From Urechis unicinctus (lineage: Eukaryota; Annelida; Polychaeta; Xenopneusta; Urechidae): 64,000 nucleotides of DNA. The stretch is taken from positions 57,551,945 through 57,615,944 of the forward strand of contig CM067358.1 in the NCBI GenBank assembly GCA_034190875.2. The letters are read 5' to 3'. The notes under the pieces are model-generated. The model was not told where the DNA came from. It saw nothing but the letters and a program-made list of their open reading frames with translations, and did no database searches. The position numbers were made by a program, and so were the translations under genes. Shown in pieces: positions 16,827-50,264 of the stretch. Numbering within the stretch: position 1 is the first letter of the stretch; every line of letters begins with the position of its first letter.

Positions 16827-18095
16827 GTAAAAAAATGAAGAAAAACGCAAATGCAAGTATAACTGATGTAAAATAAACCGCCATGTACATTGAATAATGA
16901 TCTGTGTAAGTGAGAAATAGCAAAGATGAGAAACCCCTGCCTGCAATCATCAGCGTGATGGATATTCATACATTTCTATTCGTTATTTCAACCACCTGAC
17001 CTCACGAAAACTTCCATATAACCTCATCCACGGCGAAATGGAGACCTTTGGAACGAGTCCATTTATTCTGGCCACTTGACAAATGGTTAGTGCCATTTAA
17101 TGGGCACGTCTAGATATAATAAATCAGTATCTACAAACCTCAAACGTAAATACTTTCAAAGCTCATTTTCTTTGCTGCAGAAACCAAGCAAATTGAGGTT
17201 GATGATAAATGTGGCATTAGTTTACATATGAGCGTTAAAGAGAAATACCGAATCGATCCTGACGGTTGTCCCCGGTTATACCCATAGGTATCCCTCAACC
17301 AACCATTGGTATTGCATTCCTTCATCCAATCAGTAATCTAATTACTTCCGGAAGGCATCAAGTGAGGTGCTACGCTTGTTAAAAAGCTGACTTTACAAGC
17401 CTTGGACGGGCGTTTGTTGTCTCTTTCTCATCAAAAGCCCCAAATGGAATGCAGGAAGCTTGGTCGTTTGTTTCTACTCCGGCGTTGTGTTTGAGTTTAG
17501 TGCAATAAAAACAATATGGTGCTCAGAATTGAGCTCAGAATACGCATCATTTCTGCTGTAGCCTTGCCGTACCGAACTGCTGTATTTCCGTTTTATATCA
17601 TCAAATTAGCCAGCATAGTGTCAACGTCCGCACTGGAACGATACATGGCTTCCAGAAACAGTATTCACTTTCACAGTCTGCCATGCGTGGACGTGGCCAT
17701 TTGTCTATTGCACTGTGGATCCTGTACCCACTCGAACATCACCAATGAAAGAAACAGTGAATCGATCATATTTTATATAACTGTCGGCAGCTGATATGGT
17801 TGAGACACAATAAAACTGGGTGGAGCACGCATAATTAGCGAATACTATCCCAATCTACGACGCTAACGCGAACCACGTTTCCTTCCCCTCCCCTGCCCAG
17901 AATGTCTTTTGCAGACTAGAAGCACAGACTGGCCGGAACGGCCAGGGTCGTTTTGGTTTAGATTGCCAACAGCAATGGGATGGGATCCCTCCTAGCAAAC
18001 AACGATCTTCAACGACACAAAATATCAATGTGTGATTGTTTTTGCTTATCAGACCGTGGGTCAGATTTACATTATTCAGTCTCGGAATCTGTCGT

Positions 18096-18118
18096 CATTC
18101 ATTCATTCATTCATTCAT
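18096..18118 (+). repeat. (CATT)n microsatellite private to unit 1
   Basis: About five to six CATT repeats replace the cattcatgcattcatag found at this position in the other five units. It is a local slippage expansion. Confidence 0.9.
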
Positions 18119-18200
18119 GGACAGTCCATTCTGATCCGACACTTTATCACTTGGCAGCCTTGTTTATCACCACCCAGAATATGTAAACTCCTGAAATGCG

Positions 18201-18243
18201 CTTTGTTACAGATATTCATCAACGATGAATATCTGTAACAAAG
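18201..18243. repeat. Perfect 20-bp inverted repeat (hairpin), unit 1
   Basis: The left arm ctttgttacagatattcatc and its exact reverse complement are separated by three bases (aac). The dyad lies about 65 bp downstream of X' and about 170 bp upstream of the first (TA)n tract. In this edge unit the arm is one base pair shorter than in units 2-6. No T-run follows, so there is no sign of a terminator. Confidence 0.95.
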
Positions 18244-45554: not shown

Positions 45555-46082
45555 TATAATATATATATATATATATATATATATATATATATATATATAT
45601 ATATATATATATATATATATATATATATATATATATATATATATATTATATATATATCTTATATATGCATATATATATATATATATATATATATATATAT
45701 ATAAATATATATATATATATCTCTATATATATCTCTATATATATATATATATATATATATATATATATATATATATATATATATATTCAATTGATAAATC
45801 TGCTCAGGGTACCTATTAGGCTTATAAGGGTAAGTGACAACGTATCAGTCATTGTAGCATCATGGGGTCCAAATGGCATCACGTTAGGCTCAGATTTACA
45901 ATGGGAGCTTTACTTGATATTATGAGAGTAAGGAAGCTGTCTATATAATCATATTTATATATATATATGATTATATATATCATATATATATATTGGGACG
46001 ATATATACTATATATATATATATGGGAGCTATATATATATATATATATATATATATATATATATATATATATATATATATAT
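45555..46082. repeat. Paired (TA)n tracts with disordered spacer, unit 6
   Basis: Tracts at about 45555-45786 and 45955-46082. Tract 2 contains fragments of unique sequence (ttgggacg, tgggagct), so it is scrambled relative to other units. Confidence 0.9.
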
Positions 46083-48825
46083 TCAATTATATAAATCTGC
46101 TCAGGATAAATCCTCAGGGCACCTATTTAGCTTATAAGGGTAAGTGACAACGTATCACTCATTGTAGCATCATGGGTTCCAAATGGCACCATGTGAGATT
46201 AGTACATATATCAACTTAACAAGCACAAATAATCGATGTCACCCTTTCGACTGTTGCTCTCTGATCAGACAAGTGACCTTTGTATCACACAATTGTCCTG
46301 TCTGTCGTATGTGTACACAACACTAAGCAACATTAACCTACGAAATGGCCGATGTTTTATTCTGATTGCTGTTGGGGATCAGGTTTATTATTCCCTGCAG
46401 CGACGAGAGCATTCATCTAGACAAACCACCTCAATCATGATTATCGCAGCCACATTGGTAAGATACAGTTCGAGGTAATCAATTTTCAATGCAAAATGGT
46501 TAATGTTGTGCCAGCATAATTAAGGCTTAATTAAGGCCCTTTTCGGTGTTCAGCCAAAGAACCGTTACAGTTCACCAAATCCTGCCATGAATAGTCTCTA
46601 CTAATTCTATTAATAACAATGTCACCGCAACATATGCGCAGCCTTTTTTTCACAGTTATCTAATCTTTTGTACGGTTTGATGTTGATATTCTTCAGTTGT
46701 TGTATATGATTTAGTTTGCTACAGCAATTTCGCTGCAGTTTTCGTAATATGTATTTCCAATACAAAGGTTTGCTTTAATCGTTCATTTACGACTTAATGC
46801 ATTCGTCTAACTGGCTTTACCCACCAAAACAAATGGCCACGATGACAGCACCAAATGCAGTAAACAGATTACATGATATTAGCATGTAAACAGTGAAGGC
46901 TGTAAACAAACAGGTATTTACAGAACAGATTAGACGATTTACGGTCACAATGCTTGGGTTGCATGTGTGGACAGCTGTATGTTAACAGCATTGGCTGACA
47001 TATCAACAGGATTTCACGTGTAAGCGCGAGTTGTGTGGCACAACCGATTACACATGTAATAAAAGGACATTAAACCCTGGTTTCAGGTGATACAAGCGCG
47101 ACCTGCATCTGTCACTATGTGTCAGTCGGCCAGTCGTTTTGTCACCTTTATGTTACCGTATTCGACTCCTCTTCCATTGAAAACGTCTTCAGAAGAGCTT
47201 AACACATTGTACACGTCAAATAAATAATGTTTGCCGTTTTCGCTCTAGAACCAACATAACTCAACTAATTTATCATCAATACTACCACTGACAAACATCT
47301 ACAGCATTTCACCAACCATTATACGCCGAAAGCATAAGTAGCTGCTGCACTGATTGTAGAGATCGTGTCATCGTCCTGTTCGGTATGTTCACCCAATGTA
47401 GGCCGATCTTGATGATTGACATCTGACCACTTAAACGGCCGTCATGGTCACCGAAGTATTATTTGCAGCTTCATCAAATGCATAAAATATGAGACCGGGG
47501 TGTATGGTACACTGACTTATCTGCGTCTCACACTTTCAAGGAAATTTGTTTAGTGTATATTTGCTTGTCACACTAGCCTAACAGTAGATTAGAATGTTTG
47601 CCTCTGTGCATAACATAAATCATTTTTACTTTCAAAAGGGAGATGCATAAGATAAACCCTAGTAGAAGTACTTCATACCACTGGACTATTAAGCCAACTC
47701 ATGGAGGCGTCATGACCGCAAATACACTTGTAACGAAATAGTAAGCGATATGCACACTTTCTTTAGAGCAAATACACCTCTTTTAACCAAATTAAATGAT
47801 ATCTTTGCTTCTTTATCGATAGCAAATACGGTCTCTGCTCTCAAAACGTGCATCTGTGTTGATTTTTGGCAGTTTTCGCCGCCACCATGTACCATTGTCA
47901 ATGGCTTGTCACCTTTTCCAAGTTGCGAACAGCTCGGCCATTTTAAAGACCAGAGAAGCTAGTTGCACGTTGTAGACATACTAATAGCATAGATCAAATG
48001 GAGTGTTTTGCATATGCATGCTGTTGGTGGTGTGACCAAATTTTTGATCTTCCTATTGTGAGGTACTGGGCGTTAACTGATATTCTAAGGATATAATGGT
48101 TGCGTACTTAGTTCATAAATATGATTTGCTACAGGGTAAAAGGATCGATTGGGGTAGAACCAACAGGGATGAATCAAAACGCGTTGTCAATTAGCTCAAT
48201 TTATTCTGATATCTCGGCAAAGGCCAGGAATGACGTGGCCTGAAATTTTTGAGAGGCTGGCTGCACTTAGTCCCCTAGCCCCTTGGCTTCGGGCCCTGTT
48301 TACATGTCAATGATATTCAATACTAGCGTCAAGGGTCTAGGCTGACAAGACTTCTTAAACTGGACTGGCATCCCGGATTTGGGATGCTCCAATCAAAAGC
48401 CGTGTCTCTCGGTAATTTTAAGTCTTTTATTGGTCAAAGTCACATTTCCCGAAGAAACGGCACCATATTTGTTTTGGTACGCTCCGTTTTACACCTCTTT
48501 TCATATGAAATGAAGTATTTGCTGTTGCATAACCATGGAAATGACTCCAATGGAAACCCTCGAATACGCGCAATAGTCGCATGGCGTGGTATAGAAAGAC
48601 GAAGATTAAAGAACGTGTCTAACGAATATTCGGACGCGCCAGTTTTAGACCTTGTCTTGTTATAGACTCTAGGGCTAGAAATGAAGCGGAACCCCAGGAG
48701 TATAAGCAGCAGACTAGGCTGTACTCAACATGAACCGCTCATCAGAGCAATTAACCCTAGAATGACGTCATGTTAGAGCACTGCGACCGTCAGAATTCAT
48801 TAAGTATGACAATGGAGCACATATA

Positions 48826-48982
48826 TACACACACACACACACACACGCATATATATATATATATATATATATATATATATATATATATATATATATCTAT
48901 ATATATATATATATATATATATATATATATATATATATATATATATATTATATATATATATATATATATATATATATATCTA
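48826..48982. repeat. (CA)n/(TA)n tract 3, unit 6
   Basis: The longest CA/TA tract 3 of the array, with single-base interruptions (tcta, ttat). Confidence 0.95.
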
Positions 48983-50264
48983 TGTATGTATGTTTGAACA
49001 TTTGCGCAAGAAGGTTTCGGCTGAGGACCACATTTGCCAACGCAATAAAAAAGATGAACTGAAAAATAGAACTTCTGGCCGTGTTATTATCCCATCACTC
49101 ATGCCAGCGTGGTTGCATCAATTTGATCCACACATTGACTAAAGTATAAACAATTAAGTTACTTTGGTAATTCAGAGAGCATGTGTAAGTGGCGATATAA
49201 ATCCTACGGACTTCATATTGTAAAACTAGACAGCGTAGATGGCTATTAGAGGGCACATGCTTAATACAAGAGCCTTTTCTGGAAGAATAAGGGTATTTAG
49301 GATTGAGATTGCCTATAGAAATAGGAATAGATGGTTCCTCTCAGCAAACAAATATCGTCAGCGAATCACTTAGAAATACATTGGAAAGTGCAGTCTATCA
49401 TTCTGTGTTTGATTGTTGATGTTTATCAGACCGTTGGTCATATTACATTACTCAGCCATGGAAGTCCTCGTCATTAAGCTTTCATGGTCAGTGAGGATCG
49501 ATCAGGTCTCATGTCCGCATCATTTGCCATTGACGGTCCCTCTAAAGGCTGGACATTATTCCGAGATCATCTGATTAATCATATACAACGGTATATTTAC
49601 TCAAGGAATGTCACATTGCTTATTGGCCTCTCTCTGCCTCGATTGTAATGGTTAAATTGGGGTTTAATGTCATTTTCAACAACGAGATGATATCGCGACG
49701 GTGATGGATTAAGATGATTGTGATGCTTGGAAAACTCCCCTTACGTGTTAGCGCTCACACGACGCAAACTCGTTGTCAAGACCGGATTGCAAATCCAACG
49801 ACGCTAAGACGATGGTCCAGCATCGTACTATTGAGCTACCGGGTCGGGTGCATCCCCTTTTCAAAGAATATACCGCAATTTAACGTGTTCGTCCGAGTCA
49901 CGGGGAACCGCGATATAATGTAGCAGTTAATGCTCTCAGATACGCTCAGTGAGGGCAACATCGCTAGAGTAAGCGTATTGATCCGCAAACAATATATATC
50001 ATTTCTCCCTAGTTTTGCCTCTGACACTATCATTCTACTCCGGATTGATACTTTCTTCAGTTCACCAAGTCGTTTCAAATTTTCGTAGCGTACATCTGTA
50101 TTTTGCCTTTTTGCTATACTTCTGAATTGCCGTGAAGGAACGATTATCTTGGCATGTAGTTGATATCATTTGTTAATAAATTTATGAGCTTTATGGTCTA
50201 ACCCAACAGCCATGTTACAATCATATAAGCCATCACAAATGGTCTTACATATTTCGTGTCACAA

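Follow-up and report, generated by a model that had tools for sequence, protein, structure and literature searches.

The window analysed here (64,000 nucleotides of Urechis unicinctus, C17 57551945-57615944) contains a 32.6-kb array. Six complete head-to-tail units of 5386-5495 bp each fill positions 17656-50262. The array is likely the product of a recent tandem segmental amplification, in place, of ordinary non-coding DNA inside an old duplicating cluster. This reading, in which the amplification would follow a segmental duplication, is drawn from diverged relatives of the unit in the surrounding cluster, from a paralogous locus with one partial unit and the same flank linkage, and from the closer similarity of the units to one another. 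No new mechanism is needed for the array.

Units of the array and their composition

An earlier note had placed six near-identical units of about 5.4 kb, head to tail, at 17656-50264. This description is confirmed, except that we find the end at 50262; the difference corresponds to a 2-bp AA ambiguity at the junction. Exact 24-mers recur in the window at offsets near 5.4, 10.9, 16.3, 21.7 and 27.1 kb. With this recurrence, chance can be set aside as the source of the array. All units open with the same sequence.

17656-23131 (5476 bp), + strand: unit U1, private differences concentrated beside the TA tracts
23132-28517 (5386 bp), + strand: unit U2, the reference copy
28518-34012 (5495 bp), + strand: unit U3, many single-base indels and a 61-column insertion
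34013-39428 (5416 bp), + strand: unit U4
39429-44814 (5386 bp), + strand: unit U5
44815-50262 (5448 bp), + strand: unit U6, with U5 the most diverged outside the TA neighbourhoods

With the TA tracts excluded, the units are 98.5-99.8% identical and their pairwise substitution divergence is 0.22-1.49% (about 4900 aligned positions). When the neighbourhoods of the tracts are also excluded, the divergence is 0.13-1.04% (3955 positions). The view that the array is young and long is supported. Outside the TA neighbourhoods, private sites number 22 in U6, 13 in U5 and 9 in U1, and six sites are common to U5 and U6. An edge effect making U1 the oldest copy was considered; the idea is weakened by U6 and U5 being the most diverged once these neighbourhoods are removed.

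Among the units, transitions and transversions are nearly balanced (51/54) and single-base indels are many, mostly in U3. Given this ratio and these indels, part of the inter-unit differences may be assembly errors. The same features would fit an assembly artefact that inflated the copy number or joined haplotypes. However, each unit has private changes and TA-tract lengths of its own, U5 and U6 have sites in common and the array lies inside a 71.7-Mb contig, and we regard such an artefact as quite improbable.

The array is AT-rich, with 26-43% GC in 1-kb windows. The composition of the unit is listed below, in U2 coordinates except for the last line.

23145-23409, + strand: module P, adjoining the array's left border; relatives solely on C17 among the scored matches
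23410-23690, + strand: module Q, diverged duplicate of module D, which follows about 4.15 kb downstream
23668-23712, unstranded: 45-bp near-perfect palindrome
23872-24125, unstranded: long TA dinucleotide tract, length varying from unit to unit
24126-24486, + strand: ~100-bp internal repeat region, two copies flanking a second TA tract (24272-24385)
24803-26220, + strand: module A, 8 relatives in the cluster sequence searched, 76-84% identical to U2
26555-26697, unstranded: 143-bp dispersed repeat, 87-91% identity, at least 24 scored places on 11 contigs
27132-27231, unstranded: TA tract
27244-27462, + strand: module C, 96% identity with C17 57668984-57669201 in the paralogue
27529-27887, + strand: module D, 12 relatives across the searched sequence, some being of the Q variant
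27896-28163, - strand: SINE-like repeat (~268 bp), dispersed over many contigs at 80-83% identity
20649-20810 (in U1), - strand: decayed reverse-transcriptase-like fragment, tblastn 40% over 55 aa, E 3.5e-5

The two copies of the ~100-bp internal repeat (24126-24226 and 24386-24486) are 79% alike. By eye, U1 has an additional degenerate copy. On the minus strand of the SINE-like repeat a putative tRNA-like box A is visible, also by eye. This repeat accounts for 28 of the 42 scored rows among the best candidates of 3055. The reverse-transcriptase-like fragment gives tblastn E values of 3.5e-5 to 5.3e-5 in three of the six units (U1, U5 and U6), no tblastn match being reported in U2-U4. Pfam RVT_1 is matched in 2 of 110 cluster ORFs. 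We found neither an intact transposon nor a cellular gene in the unit. The earlier statement that it contains no recognised gene, rDNA or transposon protein thus stands for gene and rDNA and has to be amended for transposons, since transposon-derived matter is present as the two dispersed repeats and the weak, decayed fragment.

Paralogous locus and surrounding cluster

About 65 kb beyond the array end, at C17 57665323-57683998, a paralogue has similar flanks around a single partial unit. Where they align, in pieces, its flanks are 91.6% and 92.9% identical to those of the window. Its partial unit is 90.1-90.9% identical to the units compared (U1, U2 and U6).

16896-17655, + strand: left flank, joined to the unit start without a gap in the paralogue (91.6% identity over 16907-17612)
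50263-50532, unstranded: stretch right of the array, no match in the paralogue

The left array border is crossed by the paralogue without a gap (184/200 identical), and the U1/U2 junction is matched by it solely from the unit start onward. The array thus shows what characterises a tandem segmental duplication: direct copies of a segment that a homologous locus carries once, between flanks that are colinear in pieces and join the unit gaplessly at the left border. As a stand-in for the ancestral state the paralogue is imperfect: about 2.9 kb and 0.7 kb of the unit are missing from it, and no match to the unit's last ~120 bp was found in it. The array units are 0.13-1.04% diverged from one another versus 7-10% from the paralogue, and the array is best read as younger than the segmental duplication that made the paralogue. 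An old array that continues homologously across the borders of the young one was rejected: comparisons of unit end with left flank and of unit start with right flank are at shuffle level (z -0.5 and -0.6). Alternatively, an older array may have shrunk in the paralogue and been homogenised at the present locus. Support for in-place amplification is tempered by this scenario and by the TA-tract result given below.

Three parts of the unit were searched against the 1.19-Gb genome, and the best candidates were scored (40 of 721, 40 of 3055 and 15 of 15). Apart from matches to the array itself, to its palindrome and to the two dispersed repeats, all 39 scored matches lie on C17 at 57.30-57.85 Mb. 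With all these module rows in one cluster, the unit as a whole is not an interspersed repeat; two pieces embedded in it are dispersed. The dispersed pieces and the decayed fragment would suit a transposon array, made of a non-autonomous element inserted head to tail or of rolling-circle copies. We consider this highly improbable. Besides the confinement of the scored rows to one cluster, TA tracts make up all of the 25 longest among 958 inverted-repeat pairs in the unit, and no LTR or terminal inverted repeat is seen by eye at the unit ends. Terminal repeats accompanied by dispersed copies with the same ends were found neither among these 25 pairs nor among the scored matches. The unit was not recently inserted at the left border, since the paralogue shares the linkage of flank and unit.

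The cluster spans about 0.5 Mb and holds diverged module copies in both orientations and of several ages. Identity to the unit across these copies is 76-84% for module A and 62-79% for module D, while pairs across the whole cluster range over 74-88% and 54-94%, respectively. Reversed-sequence controls for the repeat comparisons gave no matches. Several copies lie in the window itself.

7829-9052, + strand: fossil module A on the left side of the array, 77-78% identical where aligned, heavily gapped
15296-16117, + strand: fossil blocks on the left side of the array that are colinear with segments at 55.5-57.6 kb
52594-53153, + strand: fossil copy right of the array (pre-D and D)
53999-57569, + strand: fossil copy with blocks A, B, C and D in unit order, plus blocks common to the left flank
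60401-63936, + strand: fossil copy, with module P at 60944-61301 and a weak Q at 63737-63936

The final part of 15296-16117 matches the SINE-like repeat. A TA tract occupies the position equivalent to 27132-27231 in the right-hand fossil copy (55072-55380). Several inter-module stretches of the unit can no longer be aligned to the fossils. The six A and D pairs inside the window are all 78.4-80% identical, as expected from one single older burst, but this explanation breaks down in the cluster at large, with pair identities of 54 to 94%.

At least two further young tandem duplications occur in the cluster, at C17 57438484-57461934 and 57501046-57506030, with copies 94-99.5% alike. Eight stretches of the cluster contain 8.8-52% self-repeats per 40 kb, versus 3.7% in one control stretch. 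The idea of an isolated macrosatellite of unexplained origin is not supported, given the paralogue with its one partial unit and the ~0.5-Mb cluster of diverged relatives.

Coding potential, RNA families and constraint

Pfam searches of 145 of the 174 window ORFs of at least 54 aa (U2 and flanks) gave nothing below E 0.012, and on this ground protein genes in the array were rejected; the 29 ORFs outside the scan are mostly TA-tract, minisatellite or short. A codon-phase test was negative both for 341 ungapped segments (lowest p 0.0075) and for 9 module pairs, module D included (lowest p 0.11). Each of the 12 ATG ORFs of at least 50 aa in U2 loses some of its alignment score in one or more of the other units. 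Large duplicated clusters are frequently gene clusters, and the array might be spacer between the genes, or in the introns, of a protein-gene cluster with missed exons, riding on gene-dosage selection. An ORF at C17 57424001-57424669, probably with F5/8-type-C and PAN-like matches, would be in line with this. However, it matches itself alone within the cluster sequence compared, and the Pfam, codon-phase and ORF results above tell against such genes. A spacer of this kind has little probability.

At gathering score, no Rfam family is found in the window or in stretches L011-L024. With a lax threshold, U2 gives 30 matches; none reaches its gathering score, and those that rank highest fall on TA or CA tracts. 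An array of rDNA, tRNA or a known RNA was accordingly rejected. No match came from a phage collection or from viral contigs scanned for exact 27-base identity.

The array could nevertheless act as a functional non-coding macrosatellite: its units would yield non-coding RNA or small RNAs (e.g. piRNAs), or bind an architectural protein like DXZ4, and copy number would matter. In favour are the confinement to one locus, the nested duplications with transposon fragments, the identity retained by modules A and D across copies, and lower module variability in one of two tests. In this test, with TA neighbourhoods included, modules with relatives are less variable than the rest (41/2474 vs 67/2411, p 0.008). 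When these neighbourhoods are excluded the difference is lost (32/2187 for fossil-related modules vs 31/1768, p 0.52), and with it the case for constraint; the first test may still reflect a weak constraint on the modules with relatives. The uniform A and D pairs within the window resemble neutral decay, as does module A, in which no block stands out (0.62-0.94 per 25 bp), and pairs spread more widely across the cluster. Covariation in module D is slight: the term is only -0.42 kcal/mol, with a kept two-sided change in 3 of 27 predicted pairs. A search for a CTCF-like core motif found none in the window at up to 1 mismatch, and Rfam is silent at gathering score. We therefore judge a function of this kind improbable.

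Judged from sequence, the array gives no clear sign of doing a job, and the proposal of a non-coding RNA array or structural repeat finds no clear support in conservation, covariation or Rfam. The array is probably neutral, without a selected function. Of the options in the earlier note, the one most in line with the evidence is neutral expansion with a tendency to unequal exchange. A bolder reading, which we think unlikely, takes the ~0.5-Mb locus as a long-lived non-coding duplication nursery that makes kilobase-scale tandem arrays repeatedly, with maintained products or a break-prone structure. If so, the maintained products would be a locus-specific non-coding RNA or small-RNA cluster, or structure would drive breakage and re-copying.

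Known systems and proposed mechanism

Tandem segmental duplications and duplicon clusters combine direct local duplication, junction microhomology and nested ages. The present locus resembles them in direct local copying, in microhomology at the junction and in nested duplications of several ages; it differs in being non-coding as far as tested and in reaching six copies. Layered satellite arrays, such as primate alpha satellite, have a young core and older edges. Here too, young homogeneous copies have older diverged relatives on both sides, but the unit is a 5.4-kb composite and not a short monomer, and the relatives are scattered in both orientations within one cluster.

Human macrosatellites (TAF11-Like, SST1, PRR20, ZAV, D4Z4) share the large tandem unit, and copy number is expected to vary in such arrays (PMC3018141). 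In contrast, the present array, known from one assembly, comprises only six units over 32.6 kb; the search for a gene in the unit was negative, and the array is surrounded by diverged relatives and a one-unit paralogue. Macrosatellites usually extend over hundreds of kilobases (PMC3599962). Ours is a direct tandem array of a unit above 1 kb at one locus; because of its size, it is macrosatellite-like and not a macrosatellite proper. DXZ4 is likewise a long tandem unit that is not obviously protein coding, and its 3-kb units are GC-rich and CTCF-bound on the inactive X (PMC3218863). Our array differs in being AT-rich and in showing, by sequence motif, no CTCF-like core in the window. Several steps in the history of a long tandem repeat can be seen within one genome: a one-unit paralogue, a young six-copy array and decayed relatives nearby. 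This makes the locus a good natural test of how macrosatellites begin and of what triggers them.

In the amplification that we favour, a single 5.4-kb segment would have multiplied to six on the spot once the segmental duplication had taken place. It may have started with a founding tandem duplication at the 2-bp (AA) microhomology, and recombination between units, as unequal crossing-over or sister-chromatid exchange, would have added the later copies. With its three long TA tracts, each unit might perhaps be prone to breakage. As a general trigger these tracts are doubtful, because TA tracts of at least 20 bp are missing from the 10-kb bins that contain the other two young duplications. Most bins left of the window are likewise without one, although such tracts abound around the array.

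The six units and their content

Exact 24-mers recur in the window at offsets near 5.4, 10.9, 16.3, 21.7 and 27.1 kb, and a single anchor is found six times, at 17656, 23132, 28518, 34013, 39429 and 44815. The last unit ends at 50262, giving an array of six whole head-to-tail units (U1 to U6) of 5386-5495 bp, as the earlier note had described at 17656..50264. Each unit contains three long TA tracts, a 45-bp palindrome and two copies of an internal repeat of ~100 bp. The reference copy is U2. Modules Q and D, diverged copies of one another, lie ~4.15 kb apart.

Named parts of U2 and other repeats (window positions)
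10198-11095 and about 12170-12445: 31-bp minisatellite, its outlying part diverged
23410-23690: module Q
24803-26220: module A
26555-26697: 143-bp dispersed repeat, 24 scored places on 11 contigs (24 of 46 rows of the genome search)
27529-27887: module D
27896-28163: SINE-like repeat of ~268 bp, accounting for 28 of 42 rows of the genome search and spread over many contigs
52002-52510, 50533-50874, 53599-53705: 30-bp tandem repeat, 127-bp tandem repeat and CCCT tract, right of the array

With TA tracts excluded, units differ from one another by 0.22-1.49% in substitutions, and by 0.13-1.04% once the sequence beside the tracts is also removed. In the latter comparison, the closest pairs are among U1-U4 (0.13-0.43%), and U6 and U5 are the most different. 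Many differences of U1 adjoin TA tracts. Single-base indels are common among units, most of all in U3, and transitions and transversions between units number 51 and 54. Part of these differences may be assembly error.

The unit was said to hold no recognised gene or rDNA, and none was found. Rfam gave zero gathering-score matches in the window and in 14 of the 17 fetched left-hand loci, ARAGORN found no tRNA, and Pfam returned nothing below 0.012 for 145 of 174 ORFs (at least 54 aa; one unit plus flanks). None of the 12 ATG ORFs of U2 (at least 50 aa) holds its full alignment score across all units. In nine aligned module pairs, mismatches fall evenly on the three codon positions, the lowest p being 0.11, and the majority of gaps are not multiples of three. 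Codon phase in 341 ungapped segments of cluster self-matches stays within chance (lowest p 0.0075). For module D RNA, the covariation term is only -0.42 kcal/mol (8 copies aligned), with kept two-sided changes in 3 of 27 predicted pairs. The constraint test gives p 0.008 with the sequence beside the TA tracts and p 0.52 without it. We infer that the array has no selected function. The claim that transposon proteins are lacking is limited to intact proteins, because an RT-like peptide from a cluster locus (L015 3638-4030) has minus-strand matches in three of the six units (E 3.5e-5 to 5.3e-5, among the matches listed).

To the left of the array, window 13004-14272, read by eye, is TTAA-flanked and has terminal inverted repeats GGCCCGGTCACACAGC / GCTGTGTGACCGGGTC, with ~50% GC; it looks like an inserted DNA transposon.

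A one-unit paralogue and the origin of the array

A paralogue lies ~65 kb past the array end (C17 57665323-57683998), where left-flank pieces, one partial unit and right-flank pieces follow in that order. Counting mismatches only, the paralogue is 91.6% identical to the left flank (16907-17612) and, over six pieces for each unit, 90.1-90.9% identical to U1, U2 and U6. Its identity to the right flank is 92.9%, measured over 12 pieces in which 5676 bases out of 13.7 kb align. The paralogue spans the left border gaplessly (184 of 200 bases), and therefore the linkage of left flank to unit start predates it. At the U1/U2 junction, its match begins only from the unit start, and there is no trace in it of a linkage of unit end to unit start. 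The simplest reading is in-place tandem amplification from one unit to six after the segmental duplication behind the paralogue. The paralogue is also without unit parts 23693-26619 and 27462-28169, and no counterpart of the sequence at the array's right border was found there. The array may instead be older, the paralogue's version having shrunk and the window's having been homogenised. Copies differ by at most about 1% within the array (sequence beside TA tracts excluded) versus 9-10% from the paralogue, and the common ancestor of the six copies is therefore far later than the segmental duplication.

For in-place amplification, GTGTCAC/AAACAG at the inner junction and GTGTCAC/AACCAG at the right border have AA in common, which is compatible with a founding duplication at a 2-bp microhomology. 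Further copies would have arisen by unequal exchange. Long TA tracts might conceivably have served as break sites: bins around the array hold up to 694 bases of them per 10 kb. Counter to this role, bins of two other young duplications have no TA tracts of at least 20 bp.

By those criteria for tandem segmental duplications that could be applied, the array is one of them. It lies below the size of classical macrosatellites, and by analogy would be akin to a small one in its workings. It is a well-preserved case of a known process, useful rather than surprising, with the one-unit version of the locus persisting in the same genome.

The surrounding cluster

The array flanks carry diverged relatives of the unit modules, which keep the strand of the unit and, for the most part, its order (zero matches in reversed controls); several inter-module stretches are no longer alignable. 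Three unit parts were searched against the genome (1,190,315,542 bases, 926 contigs), in which the window occupies C17 57551945-57615944. Once rows from the array, from its palindrome and from both dispersed repeats are set aside, the remaining 39 (16, 8 and 15) all fall on C17 57.30-57.85 Mb; these counts are lower bounds, since scoring was confined to the best candidates (40 of 721, 40 of 3055 and 15 of 15). The fetched cluster sequence covers 57.39-57.616 Mb and some pieces to the right of it; modules lie there in either orientation, and the alignments include 9 copies of A and 13 of D (U2 counted in both, Q variants included in D). The six A and D pairs within the window are 78.4-80% identical, whereas cluster-wide identities run from 74 to 88% for A pairs and from 54 to 94% for D pairs, hence duplication went through several older rounds. 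In eight cluster stretches, self-repeats take up 8.8-52% per 40 kb; the one control stretch, C17 30.00-30.04 Mb, has 3.7%.

Other young duplications are present, with identities given among the matches listed. At C17 57438484-57461934, pieces of 0.4-3 kb without long TA tracts form tandem or segmental duplications 94-99.5% alike. At C17 57501046-57506030, directly after a module D copy, tandem copies spaced by ~1.6-1.9 kb are 97-98.6% alike. Colinear blocks ~80 kb apart (57527801-57535280 and 57608218-57615094) are 80-86% alike among the matches listed; they are a large old duplication including the right flank of the array.

A Pfam scan of 110 cluster ORFs of at least 88 aa, out of 120 listed, gave YqaJ (E 9.8e-14), F5/8-type-C (5.9e-07) and RVT_1 matches in the fetched left part, outside the window. 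RVT_1 occurs in two of the 110 ORFs. YqaJ occurs in one, likely L014 249-887 (+) to judge from its sequence, and probably originates from a mobile element or virus. The F5/8-type-C match, with a PAN-like one (0.0072), is probably carried by the ORF at L014 4001-4669 (+), which matches only itself among the matches listed for the cluster sequence compared.
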